DNA from: Caenorhabditis remanei
Taxonomy: Eukaryota > Nematoda > Chromadorea > Rhabditida > Rhabditidae
Reading direction: 5' to 3'
Assembly: GCF_010183535.1 (NCBI RefSeq)
Contig: NC_071331.1
Span: forward strand, 9,176,001-9,240,000
Length of the DNA: 64,000 nt
In this document: piece by piece, positions 1-64,000 of the stretch
Numbering within the stretch: the first letter of the stretch is position 1
How the letters are laid out: each line of letters starts with the position of its first letter
Program-made: the position numbers and the translations under genes
Notes under the pieces: generated by a model
Databases searched by the model: none
Seen by the model: the letters and a program-made list of their open reading frames with translations, nothing else
What the model was told of the DNA's origin: nothing

Positions 1-42
1 TTCCAAATTTTATATGGGCGTTTGAAAACAGTGAAGTAATTT

Positions 43-110
43 CTGTTTCAATACCTCGGTATTAACGCATAGCAACCATTTTATGTTGATTCATGTGCTT
101 CCTGCTGAAG
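43..110 (+). ncRNA. Candidate 21U-RNA (piRNA) locus
   Basis: The core octamer CTGTTTCA is at 43-50. A YRNT start motif (TGAT) ends at 90, so the predicted RNA is the 21-mer 90-110 with a 5' T 40 nt after the octamer. The architecture is that of motif-dependent Caenorhabditis piRNA genes, each transcribed from its own octamer as a short precursor whose product loads the Piwi protein PRG-1. Octamer, spacing and TGAT are all kept in the paralogous copies at 16658 and 30105, which supports a functional unit. Expression is inferred, not seen. Confidence 0.72.
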
Positions 111-1044
111 AAATTGAAAAACCCACTACAGACAATAATGAAAATTTAGAAGGTCAAAGCACAGCTACTATCACTGGATACAATTTCGATGCGTTTTTTT
201 TAGACATTGTGAAACTGAACAACTCCTGTAATTATTTTTTTAAATACGTGTTTACAGTTTCAAATTGCGCTCGAATTGATCTCCATTCTGACTTTATGGT
301 GGAAAATTAATTATTGAGGTGTAGAACTTTTGCAACTGATTTACAGAAATGTTCGCAACAGTATATTTTTCACGTAGGATGAAAGGAAATCCTTAATTTA
401 GAAATCCCGTTTTTTATAACGGCATTCAGAGACAGTGAGTTTTGCGGTTTCAGTATCTGAGTAAAAACCGTATTGCAACCATTTTGAAGTAATTCGTGGC
501 CTTGTTGCTGACGATAATAGGAAAACCCACTACGGACAATAATGGGAATTTAGAAAGGAAATTGAAACCATCAAAGCTTATGGATCTATTGTAGAACAAT
601 AAATTTTAGTTTTTCAAGTTGGAAATCGAGAAGATAATGTATCAACCGATAGAATAATGCTTGATTTTTCTTGGTTTTGCAAAACAACAACTGATAAAAA
701 TGATTAAACCGATTCAAAGAATACAAAACCGTGTCTACAGTTTCAAAATGCGCTTTAATAGATTTAAATGTTGATTGAATGGTGATAAGTATTTCAATAG
801 AAATCAGAAATCGAATTTCAGAAGATTTCCGGTCAAAAATCTTCTAAAAAACAACTGATGTAAGGGTACTTGATAGATCTACTTAACGAGTTGGCAACTT
901 TATGTTCCAAATAATTTTTTTTCAATGAGTTGTGTCACTCATTTTAGCTAGGTTTCAGTAACATAAAATTGTCCTCAACACTGAAAAATTTTCAGTTGAA
1001 AACCGTTTTTGGTTATATCTGAAAACAAAAATGGTCAATAAAGC

Positions 1045-1111
1045 GCTACTAACACCACCCTTCGATCACCCGATATAATTTGATTACACTTTTCATGACA
1101 TGTTGAAACAG
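1045..1111 (-). ncRNA. Candidate 21U-RNA locus
   Basis: The reverse-complement octamer is at 1104-1111. The start motif TGAT places the 5' T at 1065 (spacing 39) and the 21-mer at 1045-1065. Paralogous octamers in the other duplication units are at 18374 and 30259. Confidence 0.7.
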
Positions 1112-1432
1112 AAAAACAGCTGAAAATTATTTTATAAAATACGTGTCTACAGTTTCAAATTGTGCTCTAATAGATCTCCACTCTCGTTTTATGGTGTTCC
1201 GAGAAAATTGGATACAAATTCTCAAAAAATTTTATGTTTCGCAAATCTTGTAGAAAAACGAATTAATGCAAAGGGTATTGATGTGCCATGTTGCTCACTT
1301 ACCATTCCAACTAATAAAGGTTCAATGAGGGATAGAACTTTGTTTTCAAAAATCGTAGTTGCGGAACCTTACAAAAAAATGTTGAAACTGTAGTGAATCC
1401 CAAAACACCATTAAACTGGAGACTCTGAGTAA

Positions 1433-1743
1433 CAGGGTTGGGAAATTCCGGGCCGGGCTGACTGAGAAATTTTCCTCGGCCCGGCCCGGCCCGGCTCCTG
1501 TAGAAATTTGAAATTTTTTGAAAAAATCTTGAATTTTTTTTTTGATTTTTTTGCAAAAAAGTGGATTTTTCGACTGTGTTTTAGAATATTGGTAAAAGCC
1601 TTAGCGTACGAGAAATTTTGAGAACTTTGACTTATTTTAAATAAAAATTTTGCAGAAATTTGTGGAAAAATGGTGCACATTTTTTGAATCCGGGCCGACC
1701 GGGCCGGGCCGGACCGGAAGAATTTTTTGTCAGCCCGGGCCGC
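1433..1743. mobile_element. CG-rich hAT-like MITE, degenerate
   Basis: GGGCC-rich ends flank an A/T-rich core of the type seen in the other elements of this family. The left end resembles the consensus start CAGACTTGCAAAA but is diverged; the right end is truncated. The paralogous sequence around 18710-18750 lacks the insert and runs straight from the GAGTAA context into AAAACGGTTTCAAG, so this is an insertion in unit I. No clean target-site duplication remains. Confidence 0.6.
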
Positions 1744-3616: not shown

Positions 3617-4899
3617 ATGCAAGACGTTCATTTTTCGGACGATCTCAAGGATTTCCCCATTGAAAATGTCCCAAAGTCTTGGAAAAGGATGGAGTACGAC
3701 GAGGACGACATTATCAATAATATCGTCGACAAACTTCTTGATCTTGTCATAAAACGTGAAAATCCAGAAGAAGGAAACGACTCTATTGCTGAAAACCTAG
3801 CACAATTTGCTAACACCTTGCATGACATTGTCAATGGTCCGAGTGAACAATCTCAGTCAGATTCTAAACTGACTGATGCTAATATTGTTCGCAAAGATGC
3901 AAATCGATCCGATTCTGAAGAAGAAAAAGATGAAGAAGATGAAGATCTAGCTGATTTGGATTCTGACGAGCTTCGTGATATAGAGAGAGAAAAGAAGAGG
4001 AGAGAGATGGTGGATTCCAATACGTCAGAAGAAAAAGTTCCAGAAGGAACCGAGGATATTGATTTTAGTCAATCCGAGGATATTGACTTTGGTCAATATC
4101 ATTTGCTTCAGACGTCTCCTCCAAATGAGCCAAAAACTCCTCCACCAGAGCCAAAACGCAGAAGAAGTCCATGGGCTCCAGAACCTGGAGATATTGATTG
4201 GCCGGTCTCGCCGATACGTTATCACCAGCCAGGAACTTCTGAGGATCGCCGAAGTAAAAGTTCGACTGTGAGATTATAATTTTTGAAAACAATTTCAATT
4301 ATTTCTTTTTCAGCCAAAGAAGCCAACAACTCCACGATTCGAGGAGGTGGTCCCTGAAGCAGTACTGGCCTCCCCGATTCTCCGTGAAGCACAACTGACT
4401 TCTCCGATTCAAAGATTTGAACGATCAACTTTTATGACGAGGCAAATGATCAATCCACGGACTCCATTGTTGAGACGTGGTCCATTGTTTCCGCATGCCG
4501 CAGTTTTATCTTCCCGTCCTTCGACGCCAATTGATGTGAATCAATCAAGAAGATCAACCGCTCCGTCAACTCCCACTCCAGATGCTCATTTACTGAAAGC
4601 AAAACTTCGAGATATGACAGCTGAACAGATGAAAGAGAATCGCGAACGCGTCAAAGAGGTGATTATTGATTTTTAGCATGTTTTTAGCAAGATTTTCGGT
4701 GTTTTTAAAACACTTTTTTGGTTGTTAACTAAGTAGGTAAGATTATAGCAAGTGAACGATGTAGTTAACATTAAAAGCCGAAATATTTTAAGAATAATAT
4801 TAATAAATCTGTTATTTTCAGCATTCTGCTCGCTTCGTGAAACCCATCAAGCAAGTTGCACAGCCAGTTTTTCCGCCGAGTCCAACTGATCTGTTTTGA
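3617..4899 (+). CDS. Three-exon gene, acidic Ser/Thr-Pro-rich protein, function unknown
   Basis: I do not recognise this gene. Exons 3617-4267, 4314-4658 and 4822-4899 join in phase 0 with good splice sites (donors GTGAGA and GTGATT; acceptors TTTTTCAG and TTTTCAG) and give 357 residues. The start is the first ATG of the open frame; an upstream exon cannot be excluded. There is no signal peptide or membrane segment. Around residues 100-130 is a strongly acidic stretch followed by a basic one (DIEREKKRREM). The second half is rich in SP/TP sites, for example RRSPW, TTPRF, PSTPTPD and a C-terminal PPSPTDLF, suggesting a phosphorylated, largely disordered intracellular or nuclear protein. AATAAA at 5031-5036 may be its poly(A) signal. 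It is the only gene in the window without a paralogous copy, and codon pattern and intron structure argue that it is real. Confidence 0.82.
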
Positions 4900-4931
4900 C
4901 AAACCCATGAGAAATCACGTTATTGAAACAG
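4865..4931 (-). ncRNA. Candidate 21U-RNA locus antisense to a coding exon
   Basis: The octamer is at 4924-4931, just downstream of the stop codon of the + strand gene. The start motif CAGT places the 5' T at 4885 (spacing 39), so the predicted 21-mer 4865-4885 lies inside the last coding exon (4822-4899) in antisense orientation. Confidence 0.58.
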
Positions 4932-8653: not shown

Positions 8654-8719
8654 GAAGCCACTAATCGAAACCTATCATCATTCTTTTTAAAGTTCAATAT
8701 TATCATGACTATGAAACAG
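8654..8719 (-). ncRNA. Candidate 21U-RNA locus
   Basis: Octamer 8712-8719, start motif TGAT, 5' T at 8674 (spacing 38), 21-mer 8654-8674. The related sequences at about 9930, 41085 and 44365 have lost the octamer (TGTAACAG or CTAACAG). Confidence 0.66.
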
Positions 8720-11417: not shown

Positions 11418-11485
11418 CTGTTTCAGTAGGAGCGTTAATAACCGCTTATCACAAACATCTTCAATATCTTTCAGAAAGAAATATT
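11418..11485 (+). ncRNA. Candidate 21U-RNA locus
   Basis: Octamer 11418-11425, start motif CAAT, 5' T at 11465 (spacing 40), 21-mer 11465-11485. Relatives of this segment near 26450 and 40490 lack an exact octamer. Confidence 0.6.
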
Positions 11486-11832: not shown

Positions 11833-12492
11833 TTAATGTACACCAATGACGTCATCATGGAACGCAGAATCTTCTCGTGCCGCTTTCCGACGGTTGACTT
11901 CGGAGTTCAGTCGAGGTTTGTCGATAATCTGGAAAATAAAAATCGGATGGAAAACTATCTGTGCATGCATCATATTTAATTTATGGAATATTCAAAACAG
12001 AGATTTTTTTTCGAAATGAGGGAAAAACTTACATCTGTATGAACATCCGTCGAAAAGTCGGATCCACTGACGTACGCTGAATCGAGATTCCCAAAATCAT
12101 GATTGATATCCTTATGAACTATCAGTCTCTGGAGCTCCTCTATTCTGGCAGTAGGACTGATATCCTCCACAGAATCCACGTCATACTGTTCGAACACTTC
12201 CTCATTCTCCACTCTCACTCTTAAACTTGGTGGCAATGGAATCAAATCCACTGGATCATCCTCCTCAACTGGCACCGTATCCTCCACTCTATGATGTGTG
12301 TGTTCAAACCATTGGGGATCACTTTCGATATAATGCGCTTTTCGCGACACCGCCGCTTGTAAACGGGCAAACACTTGATTGAAACCGGCAAGTTGCTCTG
12401 CTCGTGCCGGTTGTCCGGTTAGCGAGCTGGCCAATATCATAATATTCTCTGGGATCGAGTATTGGAGTAGACGTTTGACAGGGAACAAGACG
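11833..12492 (-). pseudogene. Truncated IL-17-receptor-like gene copy (3' end only)
   Basis: Matches the last two exons of the complete gene at 45604-49547. The terminal exon 11833-11928 still encodes a 31-residue C-terminus ending DDVIGVH. The preceding exon (about 12033-12492) begins in mid-exon near the FPVKRLLQYS residues; upstream homology stops abruptly just before the element at 12544. Relative to the complete gene it has an in-frame deletion of about 186 bp, removing 62 residues of the acidic tail and joining EEVFEQ to DVDSVED. There is no SEFIR, membrane or extracellular part, so this is a remnant of the tandem duplication. Confidence 0.85.
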
Positions 12493-12543
12493 TAACGGTT
12501 TTGATATTAAGTCATGAGTACCCTGTAACATGAAATGATTATA

Positions 12544-14161
12544 CAGTGCGCGTCATAAATATGCGCCACCCCTCGAAATCGGTGTTTTCGTGAAAGTGAG
12601 CTGTTTTTTAGGGAAATCGTTATTAAAATCAAATTCAGCGTATCAAACAACCTATATTCCCAAGTTTTGAGAAAAAAATGTCGAAAAATACGTCCAGACC
12701 ACCAAAAAGTCGCTAAAACGGCCGCGTCATAAATATACGCCACCTCCCAAAAAATGAGAAATAGTTCAAATTTTGTCGAATTTCTTCAAATTTTTTGGAG
12801 AAATTTGTTCATGAAACAAAGTTTAATGGTGTTTCTGAACACTTACTCGACAGTTCTCAAAAAATTCTTGTGAGATTTTGAAAAATCAGCACTTTTTGGC
12901 GATTTTTCTGATTTTTGAGAAATTACAGTTATTATCTGGTCTCGAAGTACAGTACTTGTTTGTTTTTTAACATTTTTAAAACAAAGATTACTCAATCTTC
13001 CTATTTCAACCTTATTTGAAGCCAGAAATTTATATTCCAGGTCTTATTTTAATCGATTCAGGCAACTCGAGTCAACTAGGTCTGTAAGCATTGTGAGTTG
13101 TAGGCTAGGAATGAGATTTCAGGCGTACTGGAGGACCGAGTATAGGTTGAAAATGCACGAAACTGTTCCCTCTTAATTTGAACAAATCAAAACATTCTTA
13201 ACTTATCTTGATTCGTCCCGGGGGAAAGCCCTAGCTCTTCACAAGTTCATTGTAATTAAAATGGAACAACTAATCTAACTGCAGCTTATGTCACGTACTC
13301 ATTTGTGTATATAAGCAAAATATGGGTTTAATTACGTAGTTTGTATTAACTACACATGTTATCTTAAGCAATTGATAGCCTGATAAGGGTTTACAGACGA
13401 GATCTGTGACGAACAGGTGTGAAACAAATACCTAATACACAGCAGCTTCGTTCGCTCACTTGAAAGGATATCAGTGGTTCTTACCAAGGGTTGATATTCA
13501 AGAAATAGAGGCAAATTGAAGAAGTAACCCCAAATTTAGATGATCCATGCATTTTCAACCTATACTCGGTCCTCCAGTACGCCTGAAATCTCATTCCTAG
13601 CCTACAACTCACAATGCTTACAGACCTAGTTGACTCGAGTTGCCTGAATCGAATAAAATAAGACCTGGAATATCAATTTCAAACATCGAAACGCATTGAA
13701 ATAGGAAAATTGAGTAATCTTTGTTTTAAAAATGTTAAAAAACAAACAAGTACTGTACTTCGAGACCAGATAATAACTGTAATTTCTCAAAAATCAGAAA
13801 AATCGCCAAAAAGTGCTGATTTTTCAAAATCTCACAAGAATTTTTTGATAACTGTCGAGTAAGTGTTCAGAAACACCATTAAACTTTGTTTCATGAACAA
13901 ATTTCTCCGAAAAATTTGAAAAAATTCGACAAAATTTGAACTATTTCTCATTTTTTGGGAGGTGGCGTATATTTATGACGCGGCCGTTTTAGCGACTTTT
14001 TGGTGGTCTGGACGTATTTTTCGACATTTTTTTCTCAAAACTTGGGAATATAGGTTGTTTGATACGCTGAATTTGATTTTAATCACGATTTCCCTAAAAA
14101 ACAGCTCACTTTCACGAAAACACCGATTTCGAGGGATGGCGCATATTTATGACGCGCACTG
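12544..14161. mobile_element. Tc1/mariner-like palindromic element, 1618 bp
   Basis: The ends are perfect inverted copies starting CAGTGCGCGTCATAAATATG, flanked by TA on both sides (12542-12543 and 14162-14163), as in Tc1/mariner insertions. The two arms are inverted copies of about 620-640 bp, so the same 70-odd-codon ORF appears on both strands (12507-12743 - and 13962-14192 +); it is a by-product of the palindrome. A non-palindromic core of about 370 bp lies near 13180-13545. No transposase was seen. Confidence 0.88.
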
Positions 14162-14370
14162 TACTCCACTTCTAAGTATATACTGTAATTGAAACATACG
14201 AAAAAAAAGTCCTAGAAAACGCGAACAAAATGGTAGCTGGCTCCGAAGTATAACAGTCGAAACATGTTTATTTCATAATAAATGTTGTTGTTGAACGATT
14301 GATTGAACAGGTATTCATTCTGGGTATGAACAAGAACCTCCGTATTTCAAAAACTGAAAATATCGAGAAC

Positions 14371-14437
14371 CTGTTTCAAAAACATATTTTTTAAAAAGAC
14401 TACCATTTTGCTATATTAGTGGAGACATTTTTAATCT
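14371..14437 (+). ncRNA. Candidate 21U-RNA locus
   Basis: Octamer 14371-14378, start motif TATT, 5' T at 14417 (spacing 39), 21-mer 14417-14437. A second YRNT (TAGT) would start at 14420. Confidence 0.58.
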
Positions 14438-15033
14438 TTGTATCAGTAATCGTTTTCCGTGTAGCGGTTGGAACAATGAAAGAGACCAAGATGCATTCTG
14501 TATAGATCAACTTGAGAAATAATATGAATTGTTTAGAACAGGAAAATAAACATGCTAGAAGTTCCATGCTTTCCAATCCAACTGATTCCAAAACGTACGA
14601 TTATACTTTATTTTTCTTTCTGTTTCCCAGCATTTTCAAGTCTTGCTTCATTTTTGGAAACGTAATACCGATTTTTTAGAAGTCATGTCTGTATCATCAT
14701 TTTTTTGAATTTCTGCAGCTTGTCACGAAATTTGTTTAATCACATATTTGAATTTTTTCTTTCACGAGATTGCACCTCCGGTGGTTGCGGATTCATGTTG
14801 AATCCCTTTCGAGCATAGCTTTCAATAAATTTTATCGTGTAATATAATTTCAAAATTAATTCAATTTTTTCAGATGGTTATTCCATTTTCTGTCTCCGAT
14901 ATCCTCCACTTTCTAATAAAATTAAAAATGAAGAGATCTCTTCACTCAATATCAACCAAAAAATACAAAATAGTGTATCCAATTGCAAGTATATAATTCG
15001 CTCCCTAATCCAATTAAAGAATTATTAACTGTT

Positions 15034-15041
15034 TGAAACAG
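15034..15041 (-). promoter_or_regulatory. 21U-RNA upstream motif, no clear start motif
   Basis: Exact octamer within a small palindrome (ACTGTTTGAAACAGT), conserved at 28487. No YRNT lies 36-42 nt downstream in either copy. Confidence 0.42.
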
Positions 15042-15405
15042 TAAAACAAAAACTTAATTTACATGAATTTTGTGTCATTTTCCGAGTAAAGAAACCGTAC
15101 AGCAGCAGATTCTTCCAAATAATTGTTTCTGCATCTAAATTTTATTTTCTGTAAAACAATCTAAAATCTGCTCAGTACCGTTCTTAGTTCTCCAATGTGT
15201 CCTAGTTTTGCGAAATAAATGGGACCTAGTTTTGAAAAATAGAAAAATAGATTTTTATTCCATTACTGTTTTACCTTCCCCATAAACTCAAGATGATTCA
15301 AATTCCATTGCTTCCTCTGATTTCCTCCTTTTTTCAGATCCACCGAAACTCCCTCTCATCTCATTTCGTGTCTCCAATGGCCCCCACTTCCTTATCAACC
15401 TGAAA

Positions 15406-16016
15406 ATGAAGATCTCTCTACTCCTTCCCCTCTTCTTATCTTTCCTACTGGTCCACAAATCATCTGGTGGGGAACTAGTCGACGTTCAATTACAGGAAAT
15501 TCGACTCGGACAGTAAGTACTTTTTTCCATTGTTTCTGTTCAATTGGCGCCCTACTTTCTAGCGAGATTTGATTGGTTTTGGTTTTTAGGAGGAGGAGTG
15601 ACACCCTCTTGAATCCTAGAAGCGAAAGTGACTTTTTTTTTTCAATTTTGAACCAATTTTTGGGTCATTGAGAATGCTCATTCAAGTGGGGAATTCAATT
15701 TTGAACTCAAAAAATGGAGCAATAAAATGTAGCAAGATGCAAGAAATTTATGTAAGCATCGAAACAGGTTTTCAATGTTTTGACTTTCAGCGAAAAGTTA
15801 AAAACTGAACCAGTCAGTCGTCAACCGTCTAAAACGCGCCTCGGATACCCCAGACACTATACACAATTGGATCTTTTCCTAAAAAGTTTCCCAAAAGTGT
15901 ATAGCAATGAGAAGAAGAGCTATATAAATTTCTTTTTGACCCCATTCCGAGTGAATGTTCCTTTAATCCCAAAAGAGTGCCTTGTCTTCCGACCCCTTCT
16001 TCTTCTACTTCTCTGA
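15406..16016 (+). CDS. Possible small secreted protein (two exons)
   Basis: Exon 1 (15406-15512) encodes a clear signal peptide, MKISLLLPLFLSFLLVHKSS, then GGELVDVQLQEIRLG, ending at a strong GTAAGT donor. A TTTTTTCAG about 70 bp upstream of the ATG may be a trans- or cis-splice acceptor for the leader. A compatible acceptor (GACTTTCAG, exon from 15791) opens a 75-codon frame to a stop at 16016, giving about 110 residues. Exon 1 is duplicated at 28888-28994 with the reading frame kept; the second exon is not conserved there, which weakens this model. No family is recognised. Exon 1 is well supported, exon 2 is tentative. Confidence 0.42.
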
Positions 16017-16614: not shown

Positions 16615-16657
16615 ATTCCAAATTTTATATGGGCGTTTGAAAACAGTGAAGTAATTT

Positions 16658-16725
16658 CTGTTTCAATACTTGGGTATTAACGCATAGCAACCATTTTATG
16701 GTGATTCATGTGCTTCCTGGTGAGA
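16658..16725 (+). ncRNA. Candidate 21U-RNA locus
   Basis: Octamer 16658-16665, start motif TGAT, 5' T at 16705 (spacing 40), 21-mer 16705-16725. Paralogue of the locus at 43 with a nearly identical predicted RNA. Confidence 0.7.
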
Positions 16726-48600: not shown

Positions 48601-49547
48601 GTGGCTGAAAAGGTTTGCTGTTACAAAACCTGCATAACATTTTTGAGATAGCAAACTGGCGGATAACCATTCGATAATGATTCGCGGTACGGACGAGAAT
48701 GGATTTTTTCGCCGAGATCTACATTTTTTTTACTCGCCGAGATCTACATTTTGGTATACTTTTCAGCTCATAATATTGCATTTTAAGCGAGTTACGCACC
48801 AACCCGGTTTGCAACTATGTTTTGCACTAATTCTCCAAATTTCAAATTCCAAATTAACACTAGAGCGCACTTTCTCCCAACTCACCGCCACATTATCCTC
48901 ATCTTTATGCGGCTGCTGTGTCACATTGAACACAAAACACGTATTCCTGCCATCAGGTCCGTTGACGATCAACTTGAATGCTTTCAAATTACTCGACGAA
49001 TCTAATTGAGGTATTTGCCATGACACGTCGACGTGCAGTCGATGTTTCCTCTTGTCAATTCGGTTTGCACCCATCACTTTTGTCGTCGGCGCGATTCTGA
49101 CGTCATGCGCTCGCGGTGGCTCTTGTCCCTGTTCCACGTACTTGAAAACGTTGTCAGAGCAACCCACTGAAAATAGTATTGGACTTTTTGTTGTTGTGAG
49201 TACGCCTTACCTATGTTGACTGAACATGATATATCCTTATTCAGGGGCTCCGAGCAATCTGTGACATACAGCGGGTCTTCTGAAGGCGTCACGTCTTCCA
49301 CATCGTCCGCTTCCTCATCTTTCTTCTCCGCCTTCTGCACCTTCACCACCTTCTTCGCATTTCCCTGCTTTGTCACCGGTCGCGGCGCCCGTGTCGGTGT
49401 TTCTTCAGACGCCAGAACCAACAAATCTGCGGTGACGTCATCCGGAGAAGTCGTCAGTGAAGACGTCGAATTGTACGGCTCGGTGCGTACCGCTTGTGGG
49501 CCAGCCAAGCAGAACAAAAAGAGCCAGAAAATGGGCGAGTGAAACAT
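45604..49547 (-). CDS. IL-17 receptor-like SEFIR transmembrane receptor (ILCR type)
   Basis: Ten exons (49211-49547, 48886-49166, 48418-48604, 48249-48370, 47427-47679, 47112-47381, 46956-47062, 46584-46792, 45818-46508, 45604-45699) join in phase with canonical sites into 850 residues. Residues 1-20 are a signal peptide (MFHSPIFWLFLFCLAGPQA). A low-complexity acidic/basic stretch and a cysteine-containing extracellular region follow; residues about 427-447 are a membrane segment (YAIAAAIIIASIFALMVLFG). From about residue 485 comes a SEFIR domain: VSVLILYSHDSSQHEAAVLA, then LDAWDEDDIDENRF, SDKVILINSIGA. The long tail is acidic and ends DDVIGVH. SEFIR receptors bind IL-17 family cytokines and recruit adaptors such as ACTL/Act1; nematodes have ILCR-1 and ILCR-2, and I cannot tell which this is. 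The 47382-47426 intron is 45 bp without a stop, so it could be retained. Intron 4 carries a small inverted-repeat element. Two partial copies lie upstream in the window. Confidence 0.9.
46511..46576 (-). ncRNA. Candidate 21U-RNA locus in a receptor intron
   Basis: Octamer 46569-46576, start motif TGTT, 5' T at 46531 (spacing 38), 21-mer 46511-46531. It fits entirely within the 75 bp intron 46509-46583, same strand as the host gene. Confidence 0.6.
46808..46874 (-). ncRNA. Candidate 21U-RNA locus in a receptor intron
   Basis: Octamer 46867-46874, start motif CATT, 5' T at 46828 (spacing 39), 21-mer 46808-46828. It lies within the 163 bp intron 46793-46955, same strand as the host gene. Confidence 0.62.
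47796..48131. mobile_element. Small inverted-repeat element in receptor intron 4
   Basis: Inverted ends around CCAACTTTGAGA and TCTCAAAGTTGG and inner halves AAAGTAAATTAT against ATAATTTACTTT form an element of about 336 bp inside the 569 bp intron. No target-site duplication could be assigned. MITE-like, class unknown. Confidence 0.6.
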
Positions 49548-49838
49548 GTTATGAAGTGGAGGGCATAGTTTTTTGGAGGTGGTTGAATGAGTGGGGAGAA
49601 GATGAAGACGTCGTTTTTGGTGAAGCAGGTTAATTGTGATTTCTGGAAGAAAAAGGAGATAATGGGTTTTGGTTTTAGGAGAATTGAGAATACATACGAT
49701 TTCGATAAAAAAGAAAAATGAAACGATTCAAGAGTCTTGACGAAAACCATAAAAATGTGAGGAAAAAGCAAAGGGTGTTTGTAAAACGTGAGAATTTCTA
49801 TATACGATTTTCTAGTCACATGACAACTTTTTTTTGGT

Positions 49839-49905
49839 TGTGAATGGTGGGGAAAATCATTGAGAGATTTGAAACTGACAAGCGTGTATGGAGCAGTTGA
49901 AACAG
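49839..49905 (-). ncRNA. Candidate 21U-RNA locus
   Basis: Octamer 49898-49905, start motif CAAT, 5' T at 49859 (spacing 39), 21-mer 49839-49859; about 290 bp upstream of the receptor start codon. Confidence 0.64.
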
Positions 49906-50342: not shown

Positions 50343-50408
50343 ATGAACCATTCCAAATTCGTACTAAATGAATCTGATTACAAATCTGAAATCGGTTTCA
50401 TGAAACAG
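50343..50408 (-). ncRNA. Candidate 21U-RNA locus
   Basis: Octamer 50401-50408, start motif TAGT, 5' T at 50363 (spacing 38), 21-mer 50343-50363. First copy of the local tandem repeat. Confidence 0.64.
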
Positions 50409-50992: not shown

Positions 50993-51059
50993 TTGACTGG
51001 TGTTATCAATACAATGTTGATGTTGAAGATGAAAGACAGTAATCAGTTTAATGAAACAG
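50993..51059 (-). ncRNA. Candidate 21U-RNA locus
   Basis: Octamer 51052-51059, start motif CATT, 5' T at 51013 (spacing 39), 21-mer 50993-51013. Confidence 0.64.
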
Positions 51060-51820: not shown

Positions 51821-51887
51821 CTGTTTCATGGAAGTCAGGAAGTGAGAAATTTTTTTTCGCTGTTAGTTTGACGGTATTTTCGAGCTG
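51821..51887 (+). ncRNA. Candidate 21U-RNA locus
   Basis: Octamer 51821-51828, start motif TAGT, 5' T at 51867 (spacing 39), 21-mer 51867-51887. Confidence 0.62.
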
Positions 51888-52512
51888 GGTTGCAATTTCT
51901 GAAAGATGAAGATTTAGGAAAAAAACGAGATGTCGAGCGCATTTCTTAAAACTGATCATGTTTCAGCGAATATATGAAACTGAAACTTTGGGTATCCAAC
52001 AATGAATCTAAATTAAGAAGTACATCTCTTTGATAAAATAAACATGGTTCTCCTTAAGATGAAGCGACCTCAATAAAGTTGATAATGTGAAGTTTAGTTA
52101 GTGAAAAAACATATGAAATGAGACGATATGATTTTCATAAGAAATTAATGGATCTATGGTGTAAGCTAGCGGTTTAGACCTCACTTGTCCAAGGAATTGT
52201 TTTACTGTTTCTAAAAAACACTAAATTTCGAAGAGGGATGTATGGATCTGTATTGAAGGAGTGAGAAATGTAATGAATTTCAAAGTATTAGACGTGACTG
52301 TTTTCCCTGTGTTCTAAATCAGAAAAAATAATTTTCACTTCCCTAGTGTTGAGGAACAAATCATTTTAAAAATAGAGATGTTTACTTATATTCTATATGT
52401 ATTTCTTAAAATCTCGGTATAAACTGGAGGATCAATGCAAAACAAACTTGAACATTTGTCGTACAGGTATACGGTTTTCGAAACAGTAAATCACTACCCT
52501 GATACCAAATTT

Positions 52513-52579
52513 AGAGCAATGAAATTAGAACTAACAAAATCCAAAACGGAGAAGCCCAAATATGGCAAACTTGAAACAG
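52513..52579 (-). ncRNA. Candidate 21U-RNA locus (array unit 1)
   Basis: Octamer 52572-52579, start motif TGTT, 5' T at 52533 (spacing 39), 21-mer 52513-52533. The divergent partner motif near 52630 has decayed to CTGTCTGA. Confidence 0.68.
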
Positions 52580-52798
52580 ATTTTCTCGAGAATTTCTGTA
52601 TTTTTTCAGGAAACGTAAATTGAGTGAACCTGTCTGAGTAGTCTAAGAAAACCAGACCAGTTTTCAAAGTTTTGATTTACACGAGTCATTAATAATAATG
52701 CAAATAGGACAAAAACAGAGCGAGGGGCTTCACGTTACTATCTTTTAAAAATGTATCGGAAATTTGAGGTCCTTGAAACACTAAAGTTTAAGATGCCC

Positions 52799-52865
52799 GG
52801 AACAGCTAACCGTAATTCAACAAAATCGTGGACAGAAACACCCCAATATGTAAAGTGTGAAACAG
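52799..52865 (-). ncRNA. Candidate 21U-RNA locus
   Basis: Octamer 52858-52865, start motif TGTT, 5' T at 52819 (spacing 39), 21-mer 52799-52819. Relative of the locus at 55024. Confidence 0.66.
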
Positions 52866-53133
52866 AACTTGTCGACTTTTTCTCAGCCGTTTTGAAAGTT
52901 TTTTGAAAGAAGTTATCGTGTTTCCAATGCAGAATAGAAACCAAAACAGAATGGAAAACTCGCGATACTGTTTCTCGGTGTCCTATCCCCAAAACATTTC
53001 TTTCTTCATTTTTAACTTTCTTCCCAGCTTCAATAAAGGTCATCTAAAGAGTAGTACTCACAAATCAAAACTACAAATAAAACTTACACGAAACTGTAAA
53101 ATATTATTTATTTATTTTTTAAAAAGTTTTTTC

Positions 53134-53737
53134 CAGACTTGCCAAAAATCGGGCCCGCCCGGGCCGAGCCGAAATTTGTCTTGGCCCGACCCGCCCCGGT
53201 CGGTCCGGATTCAAAAATGGGTACCCATTTTTACCAATTTTTTTTTGAAATTTTTTGAAAATAAGAGTAAAAATGCTTAAATTATCATATTAGCCGAGCA
53301 AATTCGTTACAACTGCGCCCCGCCGCAAACGAGAGAGTATCGGCGAGAGACACAGATTTTTATCTCGCGCCAGCAATTATTTTCACAGTTTTTGACCTAT
53401 TTTCACTATTTTCGAAAGTTTTTATGTAATTTGTTCTTAAAAACAGCGAAAATAGGTCAAAAATGGTAAAAATATTTCTTCGCGCGAGAAAAATTCTGCG
53501 TCTCTCACCGATACTCTCTCGTTTGCGACGGGGCGCAGTTGTAAGAGGGGGTGGGCCGCTAATATATATTCACATTTTGATTCAATTTTAAATGTTTGTT
53601 CGAAAACTATACTTTTTTCAAAAAAGTTCAAAAAATTTCAAACATTTCCAAAAAAGTTCAAAAACACAAAATGTTTCAAAACGGGCCGGGCCGAGATTTT
53701 TCTTGAATTTGTCCCGGCCCGGCCCGTGACAAGTCTG
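53134..53737. mobile_element. CG-rich hAT-like MITE with nested insertion
   Basis: Ends CAGACTTG and CAAGTCTG, with near-matching 8 bp flanks GTTTTTTC (53126-53133) and GTTTTTTT (53738-53745). GGGCC-rich sub-ends surround an A/T-rich core resembling that of 3129-3435. A 273 bp TA-flanked element sits in its centre. Confidence 0.82.
53290..53562. mobile_element. TA-flanked palindromic element nested in a MITE
   Basis: TTAGCCGAGC and GGGCCGCTAA ends with TA on both sides (53288-53289 and 53563-53564). Inverted arms share CTGCGCCCC, AAACGAGAGAGTATCGG and their inverses. The related MITE at 3129-3435 has the uninterrupted core near 3280-3300, so this insertion is younger than the host MITE. Confidence 0.8.
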
Positions 53738-53950
53738 GTTTTTTTCAAAACTGGAACAAAATTTCCACAACGGCACATTAATTTTCATAAACCAAGCATA
53801 AGAAATTCTCACTAAATTTTGATTAAGATAAATAAAATAAGAGTATTAGGCGAAACGAACTAAAATATTTGTCGTGCAGATATACAGTTTTCGAAACAGT
53901 GAAGCACTAATCTTATACCGAATTGAAAACAACGTCATTAGTATTTTTTT

Positions 53951-54017
53951 AATGTGGTTATTGAAGTATTAACAAAATTCAAAACGGGCACGCCCAAATA
54001 CGGCAATCATGAAACAG
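53951..54017 (-). ncRNA. Candidate 21U-RNA locus (array unit 2)
   Basis: Octamer 54010-54017, start motif TGTT, 5' T at 53971 (spacing 39), 21-mer 53951-53971. Divergent from the octamer at 54075. Confidence 0.68.
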
Positions 54018-54074
54018 CTAACATTTGCATTTGAGCGTTTCTGGATTTTTCTGGGAAACAGAAATGGAGTGAAC

Positions 54075-54082
54075 CTGTTTCA
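54075..54082 (+). promoter_or_regulatory. 21U-RNA motif separated from its RNA by a transposon
   Basis: Exact octamer followed after 6 bases by the TAA target of the Harbinger-like element 54092-54820. With the element removed, a TGAT start motif would lie 39 nt from the octamer, as in sister loci 55443 and 56280. That start motif now lies beyond 54823. Confidence 0.75.
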
Positions 54083-54278
54083 GTAGTCTAACTAGGGAAG
54101 GCCTCCAGGTGACCGTGGAGTTATGGGTCGAGACCTATATCGTTGGAAAGCTCAGAAGACGCTGATTCCAAATATATATTCAGTTTTTGCCCTCGAGGCC
54201 TGGTATTCGAGAAAAACGAGGTCAACGTTTGGACCCCTGACAAGTCATTACCTTACCGACGTGTTAAAAATATCGGCA

Positions 54279-54343
54279 GCGTGGCGCAGGTGGTAGTGAG
54301 GCGGTGTGGCATGAGGAAGGGTGTGGTTCGGTCTCGGCCACGC
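54279..54343 (+). repeat. tRNA-like sequence in transposon arm
   Basis: The ends GCGTGGC and GCCACGC form a perfect 7 bp acceptor-like stem. TGGCGCAGGTGG resembles a polymerase III A box and GGTTCGGTCTC a B box; a T-run follows. The T-arm does not fold properly and the length is short, so it is at best a tRNA-derived relic, repeated inverted in the other arm. Confidence 0.4.
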
Positions 54344-54508
54344 GAATTTTTTTTGCATTTTTTGTAAAGAAAAATTTTCCGAGTACTTTATCACTTTTTG
54401 ACCATCAAATGATGGACACATTTCTGAAAATTTTTAAAAAAATAAAAATTTTTAAAGTAGTTATTTTTACTTGAAAATCAATAAAACATCATCCAAATCT
54501 TGAAAAAG

Positions 54509-54516
54509 TGAAACAG
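54509..54516 (-). promoter_or_regulatory. 21U-RNA-like octamer inside a transposon
   Basis: Exact octamer in the centre of the 54092-54820 element; no YRNT at usual spacing. May be a chance match. Confidence 0.3.
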
Positions 54517-54922
54517 ACCTTGTCAGAGAATCTTAAAAGTTCTTTACAAAAAATGCAAAAAAAATTCGCGTGGCCGAGACCGAACCCACACCCTTCCTCA
54601 TGCCACACCGCCTCACTACCACCTGCGCCACGCTGCCGATATTTTTAACACGTCGGTAAGGTAATGACTTGTCAGGGGTCCAAAATTTGACCTCGTTTTT
54701 CTCGAATACCAGGCCTCGAGGGCAAAAACTGAATATATATTTGGAATCAGCGTCTTCTGAGCTTTCCAACGATATAGGTCTCGACCCATAACTCCACGGT
54801 CACCTGGAGGCCTTCCCTAGTAAGAAAAGTATAACATTTCTCAAAGTTTTGATTTACATTATCCAATGAACATGCAAAGTTAATGTGATACCAAAGGAAT
54901 TACCAAAAAATGCATATAGGTG

Positions 54923-54989
54923 AATCGTCATAGCTACACCGTACTATATTTTTTTAAAATTTACCGGAAATTTGAAGTCTTTGAAACAG
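54923..54989 (-). ncRNA. Candidate 21U-RNA locus
   Basis: Octamer 54982-54989, start motif TAGT, 5' T at 54943 (spacing 39), 21-mer 54923-54943. Sister of 56450 with identical spacing and start motif. Confidence 0.68.
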
Positions 54990-55031
54990 ATATGTTCAAG
55001 AAATATTTCAACAAAATAATCGGTGAAACAG
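54965..55031 (-). ncRNA. Candidate 21U-RNA locus, overlapping its neighbour
   Basis: Octamer 55024-55031, start motif TGTT, 5' T at 54985 (spacing 39). The predicted 21-mer 54965-54985 runs into the octamer of the next locus (54982-54989). Confidence 0.55.
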
Positions 55032-55201
55032 AACTTTTCGACTTTTTCTCAGTCGTTATGAAAGATTTTTGAAAGAAGTTATCGTGTTTCCAATGCAGAA
55101 TAGAAAACTCGCGATAGGCTCTAAATAAAACTTGAACGAAACGGTAAACTCTTCTTTTTTTCCAAAACTAGAACGAAATTTTCATATCCGTGCATAAATT
55201 T

Positions 55202-55267
55202 TTTATAAACAGAACACTTGGAACAAATTTGAGCATTTTTCGGACAGGTATACAGTTTTTGAAACAG
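55202..55267 (-). ncRNA. Candidate 21U-RNA locus (array unit 3)
   Basis: Octamer 55260-55267, start motif TGTT, 5' T at 55222 (spacing 38), 21-mer 55202-55222. The matching sites of units 1 and 2 (about 52483 and 53893) read CGAAACAG. Confidence 0.63.
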
Positions 55268-55317
55268 TGAAGCACTAACCCGATTCCAAATAGAGAACAA
55301 CGCCATCAGTATTTTTT

Positions 55318-55385
55318 TAAACGCTTATTCACGTATTAACAAAATCCACACCGGGGGACAGCCAAATACGGCAAAAATGAAACAG
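55318..55385 (-). ncRNA. Candidate 21U-RNA locus (array unit 3)
   Basis: Octamer 55378-55385, start motif TGTT, 5' T at 55338 (spacing 40), 21-mer 55318-55338. Divergent partner at 55443. Confidence 0.68.
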
Positions 55386-55442
55386 ATAACATTCAAATTT
55401 GCGCATTTCTGGATTTTTCCGAGAAACGGAAATGGAGTGAAT

Positions 55443-55509
55443 CTGTTTCAGTAGTCTAAGAAAAGTATGACAGTGTTTAAAGTTTTGATTAAAATGAGCC
55501 ATTAATAGC
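55443..55509 (+). ncRNA. Candidate 21U-RNA locus (array unit 3)
   Basis: Octamer 55443-55450, start motif TGAT, 5' T at 55489 (spacing 39), 21-mer 55489-55509. Intact sister of the transposon-split locus at 54075. Confidence 0.7.
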
Positions 55510-56156
55510 AATGCATATAGGTGAACCAAAACAGGGGGCTTCAACTTACTATCTTAAAAAAAAGTTACCTAAAATTTGAGGTTCTTGAAACATAAAAGTT
55601 TAAGAAATGTTCCAGAGTTTTTAATTGAGATATTTTAAACGACACGGTAAAAACAGAATCTACAAAAAGGTACTCTAAATCTTCCGTTCATCTATTACAT
55701 AGATAAACCGAGAATCTTCAAAATGTTATTTTTGGAACAGTACATATTTTCAGAAATCTTCATCTCAACGGTTACTCTCGAGTTCTGCAGTCACGTTGAA
55801 TTGGACAACAACATTTTGAACTTTCAAAAAGAAGTAACCAAAGCAAAAAGTGTGCAAATGGCTCAAGTGTCCATTTCCATCATGTCAAATTTAATAGATA
55901 ACTAGCGATATTCTCTATATGAAACTTTAACGAAACCGTAATATGTTTCTAGTTTTTAAAAATAGAAGAACATTTTCACTACGGTACAGAAATTTTCATA
56001 AACCAAGCATAAGAAATTCTCACTAATCTTTGATTAAGATAAATGAAATAAGAGTATTAGGCAAAACGAACTTGAACATTTGTCGGGCAGGTATACATTC
56101 TTCAAAACAGTAAAGTCTGATACCGAATTGAGAGCAACGCCATCAATATTTTTTTT

Positions 56157-56222
56157 TAATTGCCTCTAGCCGAATTAACAAAATTCACAACGGGACACCC
56201 AAATAAGGGAAACATGAAACAG
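56157..56222 (-). ncRNA. Candidate 21U-RNA locus (array unit 4)
   Basis: Octamer 56215-56222, start motif TGTT, 5' T at 56177 (spacing 38), 21-mer 56157-56177. Divergent partner at 56280. Confidence 0.68.
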
Positions 56223-56279
56223 ATAATATTTACATTTGAATATTTCTGGATATTTCCAAGAAACGGAAATGGAGTGAAT

Positions 56280-56345
56280 CTGTTTCAGTAGTCTAAAAAA
56301 ATACAACAGTTTTCAGAGTTTTGATTTACAAGAGCTAATAAACAT
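56280..56345 (+). ncRNA. Candidate 21U-RNA locus (array unit 4)
   Basis: Octamer 56280-56287, start motif TGAT, 5' T at 56325 (spacing 38), 21-mer 56325-56345. Confidence 0.7.
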
Positions 56346-56390
56346 GCAAGACTAATGTAAGACCATAGGAATTACCAAATAATGCATATA

Positions 56391-56457
56391 TATAGGTGAA
56401 GTTACAACGTACTATATTTTTTAAAAATGTACCGGAAATTTGAAGTCTTTGAAACAG
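56391..56457 (-). ncRNA. Candidate 21U-RNA locus
   Basis: Octamer 56450-56457, start motif TAGT, 5' T at 56411 (spacing 39), 21-mer 56391-56411. Sister of 54982. Confidence 0.68.
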
Positions 56458-56650
56458 ATATGTTCAAGAAATATTTCAACAAAAAGATCGGTGAAATATG
56501 TAGAACTTTTCAACTGTCTCTGAGGCAATTTGGAGGCGTTTACTACATTTAAAAAATTGTACCGGAAATTTGAGGTCCTGGTATAAAACATAATCTACAA
56601 AAAGTTTAATCGGCCGAACCCCGAATTACATAGATAAATCGAGAATCTTT

Positions 56651-57580
56651 AAAATGTTATTTTCGGAACAATATTTCCAGAAAAAAGGTCATTCTCGAGT
56701 TCTGAAGACATTGGACAATAACTTTTTGAACTTTCAAAAAGAAGCACCACTAGAATACCAAAACCAAAGCAAAAAGTGTTGTTCGGGGCACGTGTGCGTC
56801 GACACTCCTTTGGCTCTTTGGCTCCTTATTCAGCTTCTTCTTAGCTCTCCTCCTCCTCCTCCTTTTTCTTCTTTGAGAGCTCAGAGAGAAAAGAAAACCA
56901 AAGATATGTAGAAGTGAGATAGTGGTAAGGACGTAGAGAAGAGAAGAAAGTTTCGAAAAAGGCACTGGGAGCCTTTAAGAAATGCAGCAAAAAAGGAGAG
57001 AGGAGAAAAAGTTTTGACGTGTTGTGTGTTGCTCTGTCTCTCTCTCTCTTTTTCTCGTTTTTTTCTCTTTTTGAGCACATGAAATCAAGGGGAAAACTAG
57101 GAGAATGTCCCTTTGCCACAAGTGGTTGTGAAAAGAAAAAACGAGAAGAAGAGGAGAAAAAAGAGCAGTCGAATGCACAGAAATGAAGTGGTGAATGTGT
57201 GTATCGATGCAGGATGGAGTAGTGAAGGACTGCATATTAACAACATAGAGAGAGTTTGAGATGAAAAAGAGCGTCTGAAAAAAATGACATGAGGAAAAAC
57301 ATGAGAGAAAGATTGTAGACAGAGAGAGAGAGAGAGAGATAGGATTAACTGGGTTCAAATTTTTATTAGGACTGTTTTCTAGCTGAAATTACATCAAGCT
57401 TAGGACCAATTGAACCTGAGCAGTCGGACTGTAAAATAATTAATTTGTGGGAATTTCAACACCAGACGAAACATTAAAAGTTTCTGCTTTTAGATCTGAT
57501 CAACTCTGAAATTTTTAGCAATTAAATATTTGGACACTTTTCCAATCAAATTAGTCTGGTACCGAAATACCCAAAATTTC
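56651..57580. other. Purine-rich non-coding stretch
   Basis: Strong GA/GAA bias on the + strand with CTCC and GAGA runs. Long minus-strand ORFs here (for example 56975-57358) are Ser/Phe/Leu-rich by-products of this bias. The segment 57180-57320 has a diverged second copy at about 58795-58960. Confidence 0.55.
57319..57339. repeat. (AG)n microsatellite
   Basis: Uninterrupted AG dinucleotide run of about 20 bp. Confidence 0.85.
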
Positions 57581-57588
57581 AACACATG

Positions 57589-57653
57589 ACTAATCATTAC
57601 GATGACTAATCAATACATAATAAGTTCGGAATATTCTCAGACTGTTGAAACAG
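57589..57653 (-). ncRNA. Candidate 21U-RNA locus
   Basis: Octamer 57646-57653. Two YRNT options: TGAT with 5' T at 57609 (spacing 37), or TAGT with 5' T at 57605 (spacing 41). Confidence 0.55.
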
Positions 57654-57928: not shown

Positions 57929-57994
57929 ATCATACGTTACAATCATCTAACATTGAACCTTTTCGTGTGTGAATTTAGTTTTAGGATGAAACAG
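57929..57994 (-). ncRNA. Candidate 21U-RNA locus
   Basis: Octamer 57987-57994, start motif TGTT, 5' T at 57949 (spacing 38), 21-mer 57929-57949. Confidence 0.65.
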
Positions 57995-59777: not shown

Positions 59778-59844
59778 TAGACCAGTGGATTTTCTCTATT
59801 GCAAAATTTTTTATTTAGTTTTTTGAATCTTGAAACTGAAACAG
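59778..59844 (-). ncRNA. Candidate 21U-RNA locus
   Basis: Octamer 59837-59844, start motif CAAT, 5' T at 59798 (spacing 39), 21-mer 59778-59798. Confidence 0.65.
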
Positions 59845-60349: not shown

Positions 60350-60415
60350 CTGTTTCATCTTTTTCATATTTTACGAAACAAGTAAAACTGATAATCGTCG
60401 AAGTTTATGATAAGA
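60350..60415 (+). ncRNA. Candidate 21U-RNA locus
   Basis: Octamer 60350-60357, start motif TAAT, 5' T at 60395 (spacing 38), 21-mer 60395-60415. Confidence 0.63.
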
Positions 60416-62275
60416 ATAGAAACTTAAAGTCAAATTATTCAAAATTTGAGCCAAGCACTTTAAATTTGGTGATATGCTTTGGACGCTTTAAAGTTCAATT
60501 TGTGTCCGACTAATGTTTCAACTTGAAAGTCGAATAAAATTTCTCCAAGTTTCAAGGCGAGTTATTACAAAACGTTGGAAACAAAAAACCTATACAAATC
60601 GTGTGAAACATTACTTTGTGAGTTTTGGGTAATAAAATTCTAACGGACCATGGTAAATCGCGGAATCCAAACGTCAAAAGATTTCAGAACTATTTGAAAC
60701 ACGCTTATATTGTACATAGAACAAAAAACTTGAGGACAGGTGGAATAGAATTGAAAAGTGGAAGAGAAATATGGTCTAGTCGATCAAACATGTAAAGAAC
60801 TCAAAAACTAAACTGATCTTTGGAAACAGTGATATTTTACATCTTGAGATGGGAATCAGACAGTGAGACTTCACTATTTTTATCTCATTGGAGAACTCAG
60901 TTTATGTCAATGTTAAACCACATGTAGATTTCAAAACCGACATAATTTATTATCCCGCATGAACTCTAAATACGGCACGCATTGAAAAAAAAAGTTTTTG
61001 AAAGTTTTTGTGTCTTCATTGAAACACGAAGCATCATTTATAATATGTAGCAATGTTCTTTATAATAAATAGAGGATTCTAGGGGAACTTAAGATCGAAT
61101 TAGCAACCCAGTAAATCGATAAATATATAACTTGGTCACGAAAAGGTAAAATAATTTTTTTACTGTTATGATCAATTGAATGCAGAGCAGAAGATATTCG
61201 TTGATTTGATAACTTCTTTACAACTAAAATTAGGGAAAAATTGATAGTCGATGAACATTCTCAAAATTTCCAAATTGCAGAGGAAAATCGATCACAGAAC
61301 GTTGTAACAAATTGTTTATAAAGATTGAGTGAAACATTACTTTGCGAATTCTGGGTACTGAAACGCTACGTGGTCTAGAAGCATGATATTTCTGTGGATT
61401 GATGTCCTTCAATGATAATTGTTTTTCTAAATAATGGAATCAAAGGAAGGAGAAGTAAATGGTGATATCAAAATGTAAAGAATTCAGAAACCAAACCGAT
61501 CTTTGGAAACAGTGAGATTTTACATCTTGAGATAGGAGTCAGACAGTGAAACTACACTATTTTCATCTTATTAGACAGCTCAGTTTATGTCAGTGTTAAA
61601 CCAGATGTAGATTTCAAAACCGACATGATTTATGAACGCTCTGAATTCAAAATATGGCACGTATTGAAAAAATTGTTTTTGAAAGTTTTTGTGTCTTGCT
61701 TGAAACAAGAATTAACATCAATTTTTACAGAAAGAAATACAGCATTCGAGCGGAATTTCACTAGTCAGAACAGATACCTGACCCATATCAAAACTCACTG
61801 AAAATGGAATTTTTTTCATTGATGGCCAGGAAAGTGTAACAATATTTTTCTTACAGTTTCAAAAAGTCTGGAAGAAGAAACTACGGGGGTTTGATTAGTC
61901 CATCTACCATCATTTTTTAATCCCCAAAACATCCGGCCCGTGACAAGTTTGATTTACTGTAGTAGGAGGACCCCTGAAATTGAAGTACGCCTCCATTAGA
62001 AGAATAGAAGGGCATGTCATTCTATTAAAGGTCTATAGCTAAAATTAGGATAAAAAACTAATCTTCGAATGCGGCAATGCAACATTTCTTTACCAAAACT
62101 CTCGAAACTTGTTGACCGATTGAAACATTAGGAAACATCGTCTCCATATTCTTTTTCACTTTGAAACTAACATAATTTATGAATTCGCGGAAAGTAAACA
62201 AGAAGTTATCCGGTCTTCTGTATAATTTTAATGATTTATACTCCAGTTTTTAAATAAATTAAATTTAAAATTGAA

Positions 62276-62342
62276 TAATTGAAAAAATTAAATTAAGTAG
62301 GAAAATCGGGTTTCAAATTATTTTGAGTCTTGCTTGAAACAG
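62276..62342 (-). ncRNA. Candidate 21U-RNA locus
   Basis: Octamer 62335-62342, start motif TACT, 5' T at 62296 (spacing 39), 21-mer 62276-62296. Confidence 0.62.
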
Positions 62343-63685
62343 GGAGTAACATTGATAATGTCAATGTTCACAGTAAGAAATTGAGGATTCCAAAAGAACT
62401 TTAAACCGAATTAGCAACACAATAACTCGAAAAATAAATATATTGGTCACGAAAAGGTAAAATAATTTTCTACTATTATTTGTAAGCTTTAGAGCTAAGA
62501 TTAGGGAAAATTGATATTCGATGGGCATTCTCAAAATTTCCAAATTGCAGAGGAAATTCGATCACAGAACGTTGTAACAAATTGTTTATAAAGATTGTGT
62601 GAAACATTATTTTGTGAATTCTGGATATTGAAACTCTTAGTAGCAGTTTTCGATGAATTGCGGAATCCATAAGTTGAAAAATTTCAGGACCATTTGAACC
62701 ACATTAATATTGTATGTACATAAAACAAAACAACTTGAGGGCAGGTGGATTTTGATGAAAAGTGGAATAGTTGATTCGTCGCAAATAGCAATATCAAAAA
62801 TGAAAAAAGCTCAGAAATCAAACTTTGGAAACAGTGAGACTATAGCTCGAAAAGTTGATCAGATAGTGAGACTACACACTTTTTTATTAATGTATCATTA
62901 CCGAGCTCAGTTTATGTCGATGTCATGCCATATGGAGATATCAAAACTGACATAATTTATGGACGCGCTGAACCCAAAATATTGCATGTATTGAAAAAAT
63001 TATTTTTGAAAGTTTTTGTGTCTTCATTGAAACACGAAGCATCATTTATAATATGTAGCAATGTTCTTTATAATAAATAGAGGATTCTAGGGGAACTTCA
63101 GACTGAATTAGCAACCCAGTAAACGGACAAATAAATAAATTGGCCACGGAAAGATAAAAATCATTTTTTACTGTTATTTGCAAACTTTGCAGCTAAAGTT
63201 AGGAGAAAACTAATGCTTGAAATACATTCTCAAATTTTGCAAACTGAAACGTTCCGAGGAATACCATCACAAAATGTCGTGACTTATAATTTATAGAAAT
63301 TGTGTAAAATATTACTTTGTGAATTCTGGGTATTGAAACTATTAGTGGCCTAAGTGTTTGATAAGCCAACCTGATCTTTGGAAACAGTGAAATTTTATAG
63401 CTTCTGGTAGGAATCAGACAGCGAGACTCCAATATTTTCTATCGGTATTGAGCTCAGGTTATGTCACTGTGATACCTTATGTGGATTTCGAAACCGGCAT
63501 AATTTATAAATTCGCGGAATGTAGACAAGAAGTAGGAAAATCAGTTATCCCAAATTGTTCCTATTTGAAACACGGAGTAACAAAGGATTTTCTTCACTAG
63601 TCAGAAAAGATTCTCGATCCATAACTTATTAAAAACAGGAAATTTTTGTTTCGATCGTCAGGAAAGTGCAACAATATTTTTCTTA

Positions 63686-63751
63686 CTGTTTCAAAAAGTC
63701 TAGAACAAAAAACTTCAAAGTTTTAGCTAGTTCACCAGCCCTAATCGATTT
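63686..63751 (+). ncRNA. Candidate 21U-RNA locus
   Basis: Octamer 63686-63693, start motif TAGT, 5' T at 63731 (spacing 38), 21-mer 63731-63751. The repeat relative near 61853 reads CAGTTTCA. Confidence 0.62.
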
Positions 63752-64000
63752 TCGAAAGACAACCTTATCTCGTAGAAAAACGTTTCGTTACCAAAACTCT
63801 CGAAACTTGTTGACCGATTGAAACATTAAGAAACATCATCTCCATATTCCTCCTCCTCCTCTGACACGAAATGCAATGTTTATTAGCTTGAATTATAAGG
63901 GAGACCCCCGGAAAAAAGTGTCGACCTATATGTGGCGTGTATTGGTGTCTTGAAGGGGGAGAGAAGACATGCAAGACGACGACGACAACATTGCAATCTA

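Follow-up and report, generated by a model that had tools for sequence, protein, structure and literature searches.

Octamers and initiators in the window

The stretch of DNA analysed here (the window) comprises 64,000 bp at positions 9,176,001-9,240,000 of chromosome IV (C4) in the genome of Caenorhabditis remanei strain PX506, and it carries the signals of a dense set of very short genes for 21U-RNAs, which are PIWI-interacting RNAs (piRNAs). The upstream octamer (Ruby motif) of type-I 21U-RNA genes, CTGTTTCA (read as TGAAACAG on the opposite strand), was found by exact count 16 times on the forward and 36 times on the reverse strand. The total of 52 copies is the number given in the initial annotation of this DNA. 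Genome-wide the octamer occurs 19,000 times in 130.47 Mb, or 9.3 times per 64 kb, and the window exceeds this mean 5.6 times. The reversed control word ACTTTGTC occurs twice in the window and 6,781 times genome-wide, and the octamer is the commonest of 840 words made of the same letters (mean 2.7). Markov models of orders 1 to 5 predicted 4.2, 6.2, 8.8, 14.6 and 28.5 copies, the highest orders already holding most of the octamer word. The same annotation had put the expectation at about 2, which is too low against these Markov values and the genome mean; the excess is nonetheless real, and a compositional origin of the octamers was ruled out by the Markov and permuted-word controls. The copies are unevenly spread, 25 of the 52 lying within the final 16 kb of the window, and local families contribute to the 36:16 skew towards the reverse strand.

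Offsets of the initiator YRNT, whose T would be the first base of the RNA, were counted from the C of the octamer at 51 sites, the octamer at 43 being dropped for having no upstream sequence. The T was located at +45, +46 and +47 in 14, 16 and 6 of these sites, while the majority of other offsets gave about 4; among 116 sites elsewhere on C4 the corresponding numbers were 22, 39 and 22, with about 10 for the majority of other offsets. Summed over these three offsets, the initiator was present at 36 of the 51 window sites, where shifted offsets gave 11.6 on average and 17 at most, and at 83 of the 116 other C4 sites, where they gave 25.9 on average. Octamers off C4 did not behave in this way (1 of 13, against 2.1 at shifted offsets). 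One-base variants of the octamer were abundant, as had been claimed, with 192 usable sites over 24 variants; 109 of them had YRNT at the right distance, against 39.4 expected, and permuted words pooled had it at the same distance in 508 of 2,179 cases, against 466. When the range was widened to +43 to +49, YRNT was present at 40 of the 52 exact octamers.

A passage of PMC9683057 describes, for C. briggsae, a YR directly 5' of the 21U T and initiation probably two nucleotides before the T. The predicted gene anatomy in the window is the same.

Predicted 21U-RNA genes

A gene model combining octamer region, spacing and initiator was trained on 367 C4 sites outside the window and applied with a cut-off of 14 bits; two of the loci used for training are 8 and 10 kb away from the window, with which they may have local repeats in common. 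The model predicted 157 loci in the window, 60 on the forward and 97 on the reverse strand, compared with a mean of 7.5 in 10 dinucleotide shuffles. Off C4 it predicted 6 loci in 40,112 bp, a sample that overstates the background because eight of its 3-kb pieces were chosen for an octamer-containing 14-mer. In the reverse test, 200 kb of C4 and 40 kb of sequence off C4 were scored with a model trained on the window, which predicted 290 and 4 loci, respectively. Within the window the density of predicted loci ranged from 3 to 18 per 4 kb. Distinct predicted guides numbered 151 of 157, the six repeated ones sitting in both arms of an inverted repeat of 99.3% identity (see below). Three of the 157 loci start inside exon-like open reading frames (ORFs), as judged from a partial ORF list, and a strict YRNT is missing from some. 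The initial annotation had the cluster account for the greater part of the non-coding sequence; the 157 predicted units, of about 70 bp each, amount to roughly 11 kb and so do not account for it.

Thirty-nine of the 157 predicted genes combine an exact octamer with an initiator and a score of at least 14 bits; their coordinates run from the octamer to the final base of the predicted 21U-RNA. On the forward strand these candidates are located at 43-110 (octamer with YRNT), 11418-11485, 14371-14437, 16658-16725 (of one family with those at 43 and 30105), 18420-18485, 18513-18581, 28707-28772, 30105-30172, 43515-43582 (with an identical copy at 41937), 51821-51887, 55443-55509, 56280-56345, 60350-60415 and 63686-63751. 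Those predicted on the reverse strand are located at 1045-1111, 4865-4931, 8654-8719, 18313-18381 (of one family with those at 1111 and 30266), 30201-30266, 39856-39921, 41870-41937 (the identical copy of that at 43515), 46511-46576, 46808-46874, 49839-49905, 50343-50408, 50993-51059, 52513-52579 (of one family with those at 54017, 55385 and 56222), 52799-52865, 53951-54017, 54923-54989, 54965-55031, 55202-55267, 55318-55385, 56157-56222, 56391-56457, 57589-57653, 57929-57994, 59778-59844 and 62276-62342.

Position on chromosome IV

According to Table 1 of PMC10461856, from crosses of C. remanei PX506 and PX553, the left arm of chromosome IV ends at 8.64 Mb, which places the start of the window about 0.54 Mb into the low-recombination centre. 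In two thinned genome-wide octamer patterns, each listed in full, C4 held 66 of 100 and 24 of 48 copies of the octamer, compared with its 20% share of the genome. Several of the 66 have downstream sequence in common (for example near 2.3-2.43 Mb), so that not all of them are independent. The octamer-rich parts of C4 in these patterns are at about 2-12.5 and 18.4-24.5 Mb; the region 12.6-18.4 Mb is poor, with 1 of 66 and 2 of 24 copies. Along C4 the window-trained model found 0-2 loci in each 10 kb up to 1.1 Mb and 7-36 in each 10 kb from there on. The stretch of about 12.6-18.4 Mb with few octamers and that of about 0.1-1.1 Mb with few predicted 21U-RNA genes indicate that the piRNA genes are divided among two or more large domains. 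A cluster on chromosome I was not seen in the thinned patterns (8 of 100 and 2 of 48 octamers), which are a coarse test.

For comparison, 20 pieces of 10 kb, spaced evenly along C4 between 0.1 and 6.2 Mb, contained 84 octamers, a mean of 27 per 64 kb, with a range of 0 to 102 per 64 kb (102 in piece L024). Piece L029, which was picked for its hits, reached 184 per 64 kb. The octamer density of the window is about twice that of the C4 sample and is unexceptional for piRNA-rich chromosome IV. The condition set in the initial annotation, a density no higher than in other arm sequence, is answered in part by this comparison.

These results indicate that the window is a slice, with about 150 tiny predicted genes on both strands of positions 1-64000, of multi-megabase type-I 21U-RNA gene domains on C. 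remanei chromosome IV. The sequence supports the piRNA reading well, and we estimate the probability of this explanation at roughly 0.93. The earlier description of the octamers as marks of Caenorhabditis motif-dependent piRNA genes is upheld by the spaced initiator, by the excess of predicted loci over shuffled sequence and by the concentration on C4; the idea that the window forms a dense cluster of its own gives way to that of a slice of much larger domains.

Several observations weigh against this assignment. YRNT is absent at +43 to +49 from 12 of the 52 octamers, some of which pass the gene model anyway; low-complexity T-rich hits are found among the predicted loci (22887, 23897, 34342 and 34354); a Piwi-domain search of the genome gave 67 matches, without telling which is PRG-1; and between duplicates the initiator T, contrary to expectation, was changed about as often as the flanks (11 of 64 sites in the window, 7 of 61 in C4). 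This last result implies that a clear restraint on change exists for the octamer and not for the initiator; in a small set limited to pairs of two predicted genes, the T looked conserved, with a change in 1 of 36.

The octamers at 6104, 21317, 35633, 35774, 15041 and 28494, all on the reverse strand, belong to duplicate families of which every copy is without YRNT at +43 to +49. They may be dead genes, genes with other initiators, or not piRNA genes.

Local duplication

Self-comparison revealed that within-window duplicates of at least 80 bp cover 45,484 of the 64,000 bases (71%) and include 127 of the 157 predicted loci (81%). The copies are tandem, dispersed and inverted. The segment 1-871 is a local duplicate of 16616-17491 (86.5% identity) with several predicted genes per copy, and 14995-17190 is a duplicate of 28448-30645 (78%). 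Arrays of diverged short local duplicates with predicted genes are found at 52437-56744 and 60564-63714. Two octamer families were searched in the whole genome: all four matches of one were inside the window, as were four of the five matches of the other, the fifth being located 36 kb upstream (numbers of matches are lower bounds). For these two families the confinement to the window or its vicinity points to local duplication and not to transposition. With most of the window made of local duplicates that hold most of the predicted genes, the array has grown largely through local tandem, dispersed and inverted duplication.

Some individual repeats were observed. The segments 39967-42556 and 42898-45485 form an inverted repeat, the arms of which measure 2.6 kb, are 99.3% identical and lie about 340 bp apart. 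This repeat holds six predicted 21U-RNA genes in identical copies and may result from a recent inversion-duplication or from the assembly. The two copies of a 2-kb element, at 22409-24374 and 32869-34832, can be aligned with each other in direct (91%) as well as in inverted orientation (95%), which means that each is palindromic, and the element looks like a fold-back element. Another inverted repeat, at 12542-13157 and 13548-14163 (616 bp, 97% identical, about 390 bp apart), resembles the ends of a DNA transposon. Short arrays of the pentamers CCGGG/CCGGC are present in otherwise AT-rich DNA at 17551-17920 and 39439-39768, with similar sequence at about 1440-1750.

Divergence between duplicates

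Differences between duplicates of at least 200 bp and at most 98% identity were counted along the predicted genes, using one alignment per site. A set of C4 loci (n = 63), mostly from pieces L024, L017 and L018 with extensions, was scored with the window-trained model. For the window sites (n = 64) the octamer differed at 11.3% of positions, and flanks and spacer at 13-17%. Within the predicted guide the values were 26.2% at positions 2-8, 26.5% at 9-15 and 21.5% at 16-21, followed by 13.1% at positions 22-26. The C4 loci gave 7.9% for the octamer, 13-15% for flanks and spacer, and 22.7%, 22.8% and 18.8% for the three guide segments, followed by 18.0% at positions 22-26. Predicted guide positions 2-21 thus differed 1.6-1.7 times as often as the flanks. 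Per site, the guide was above the flanks in 49 and below in 14 window sites (Wilcoxon p = 1.3e-7); for C4 the effect was weaker (38 above, 20 below, p = 2.2e-4). These per-site tests are to be trusted over Fisher tests, since sites of common families make the latter overstate independence.

By position, pooled substitutions rose from 0.14 at the T to 0.23 one base further on and had returned to 0.13 by position 23, and the rise was present for A/T and G/C bases alike. The odds of an indel opening were 2.2 times (window) and 3.1 times (C4 loci) higher in the guide than in the flanks. No seed-region bias was seen within the guide, positions 2-8 and 9-15 being alike, and the dependence of the excess on age was mixed. 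Where both copies kept a good score the guide excess was 1.90 and 1.72, compared with 1.49 and 1.23 where one copy had lost it. The step in rate at the ends of the predicted 21-nt product gives indirect support to the proposal that these loci make 21U-RNAs.

Other content of the window

No tRNA was found by a scan of the window, and an Rfam search of the window gave no match at gathering score. Pfam matches were obtained in 2 of the 10 ORFs scanned. A receptor-like gene with ILCR1_N and Ig_ILCR1 domains lies on two ORFs at 45725-49727 on the reverse strand; the ORF at 45725-46528 (reverse strand) has a shorter duplicate at 11976-12506 on the same strand.

Discussion

The proposed genes consist of the upstream octamer, a spacer of about 38 nt and a YRNT whose T would be base 1 of the 21-nt guide. 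By analogy with C. elegans, SNPC-4, PRDE-1, TOFU-4 and TOFU-5 would bind the octamer, RNA polymerase II would start two bases 5' of the T to give a short capped precursor, and trimming of this precursor would yield a 21U-RNA for loading on PRG-1 in the germline. The machinery and initiation rules are described in passages of PMC6468775 and PMC9683057, and the review PMC6468775 mentions that 21U-RNAs of C. remanei were profiled previously.

As given in PMC9683057, the type-I clusters of C. elegans are at 4.75-7.5 and 13.5-17.5 Mb of chromosome IV. The C. remanei domains are like these in the octamer, the YR initiator, the T start, the use of both strands and the location in large domains on chromosome IV; they differ in the species and in an array much of which visibly consists of local duplicates. 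The same source places the piRNA clusters of C. briggsae on chromosomes I and IV. These share octamer, initiator and large domains on IV, whereas the cluster on I has no counterpart in the coarse thinned patterns of C. remanei. The P-type piRNAs of Pristionchus also have an upstream motif and individual short genes, but according to PMC6436959 they are dispersed genome-wide in introns of active genes, unlike the signal described here, which is concentrated on one chromosome. For amniote pachytene piRNA loci, PMC9925758 invokes both structural mutation and selection for rapid turnover, an explanation similar to the one considered below; there, structural variants of at least 50 bp act on whole loci, whereas in the window single-guide genes show a step in rate at the guide.

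The octamers might be mere passengers of interspersed repeats or transposons common in the window, devoid of piRNA function. The many octamers in repeated families, the share of predicted loci in duplicated DNA and the family at 6104, 21317, 35633 and 35774, which is without YRNT, would fit such an origin. However, the two families searched genome-wide are local and not spread over the genome as a transposon-borne repeat would be, most octamers belong to no common family and yet have the initiator at a fixed distance, and other C4 loci show the same octamer-initiator signal. A repeat or transposon origin was rejected for the two searched families only; as a general explanation of the octamers we consider it very improbable.

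The faster divergence of the guide could be due to alignment, site choice or non-independent copies. Sites do have families in common, and when only independent pairs were compared the effect was retained in the window (17 pairs, p = 0.0013) and was marginal in C4 (16 pairs, p = 0.09). With the spacing fixed, C4 octamers for which both copies have an initiator gave a ratio of 1.35 (26 up, 25 down, p = 0.088), those whose reference copy is without initiator still gave 1.60 (n = 23, p = 0.011), and C4 pairs of at least 88% identity showed no excess (n = 6). Against an artefact, random positions in the same alignments reached the observed value in 0 of 1000 trials for window and C4 each. Control positions that were matched by having a conserved 8-mer and a conserved T gave differences of 12.1% and 11.3%, compared with 24.4% and 22.0% at 48 and 24 sites (z = 9.7 and 5.7, 0 of 2000 each), and omission of the weight matrix left a ratio of 1.61 in both sets (p = 6.7e-5 in the window, 0.0024 in C4). 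Furthermore, the excess was missing from window octamers without initiator (ratio 1.03, n = 14) and from pooled pairs in which neither copy has one (0.94, n = 16), and present in pooled pairs in which both do (1.58, n = 84, p = 2.4e-5). It was visible by eye in many of 26 inspected alignments, several others being without it. After the matched controls an artefact is unlikely.

A real excess may be caused by selection or by mutation. Local segmental duplication may copy promoter-plus-guide cassettes, with purifying selection holding the octamer and diversifying selection speeding guide positions 2-21, as in immune-receptor families; we hold this explanation tentatively, at somewhat less than even odds. 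It fits the 3' edge that the substitution excess of the window has at the end of the guide, and also the finding that the excess is larger in pairs with two apparently intact promoters. Selection on the octamer was inferred from polymorphism in PMC6436959. Mutation where transcription starts in the germline, or at the paused polymerase, might raise the rate without selection on the guide, and this too is a possible cause to which we would give not quite an even chance. Start-site mutagenesis occurs in other animals. Such a cause would agree with the rise of both substitutions and indels, with the lack of a seed pattern and with the softer 3' edge in C4, where positions 22-26 are still somewhat high. 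What speaks against it is that the substitution excess in the window stops near position 22, short of the precursor length of 25-29 nt given in PMC9683057; indels at positions 22-26 of the window stay raised (17 of 320), which qualifies this edge.

By either cause, after duplication the octamer of the predicted genes appears to be held back while the guide diverges faster than the adjoining DNA. This pattern suggests that piRNA repertoires duplicate and diversify. In the literature searched, largely at the level of abstracts and passages, no report was found of a comparison between guide and flank evolution rates for nematode 21U-RNAs.

The cluster is of an already known kind, and the duplicate-and-diversify pattern is the part worth following. 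The analysis assigns a known piRNA system to a chromosome-scale genome of C. remanei and gives predicted positions with which reads can be compared at once. As a mechanism, local duplication with guide-specific divergence is concrete and testable, and if true it would answer how new piRNA genes arise, a question posed in PMC9683057.

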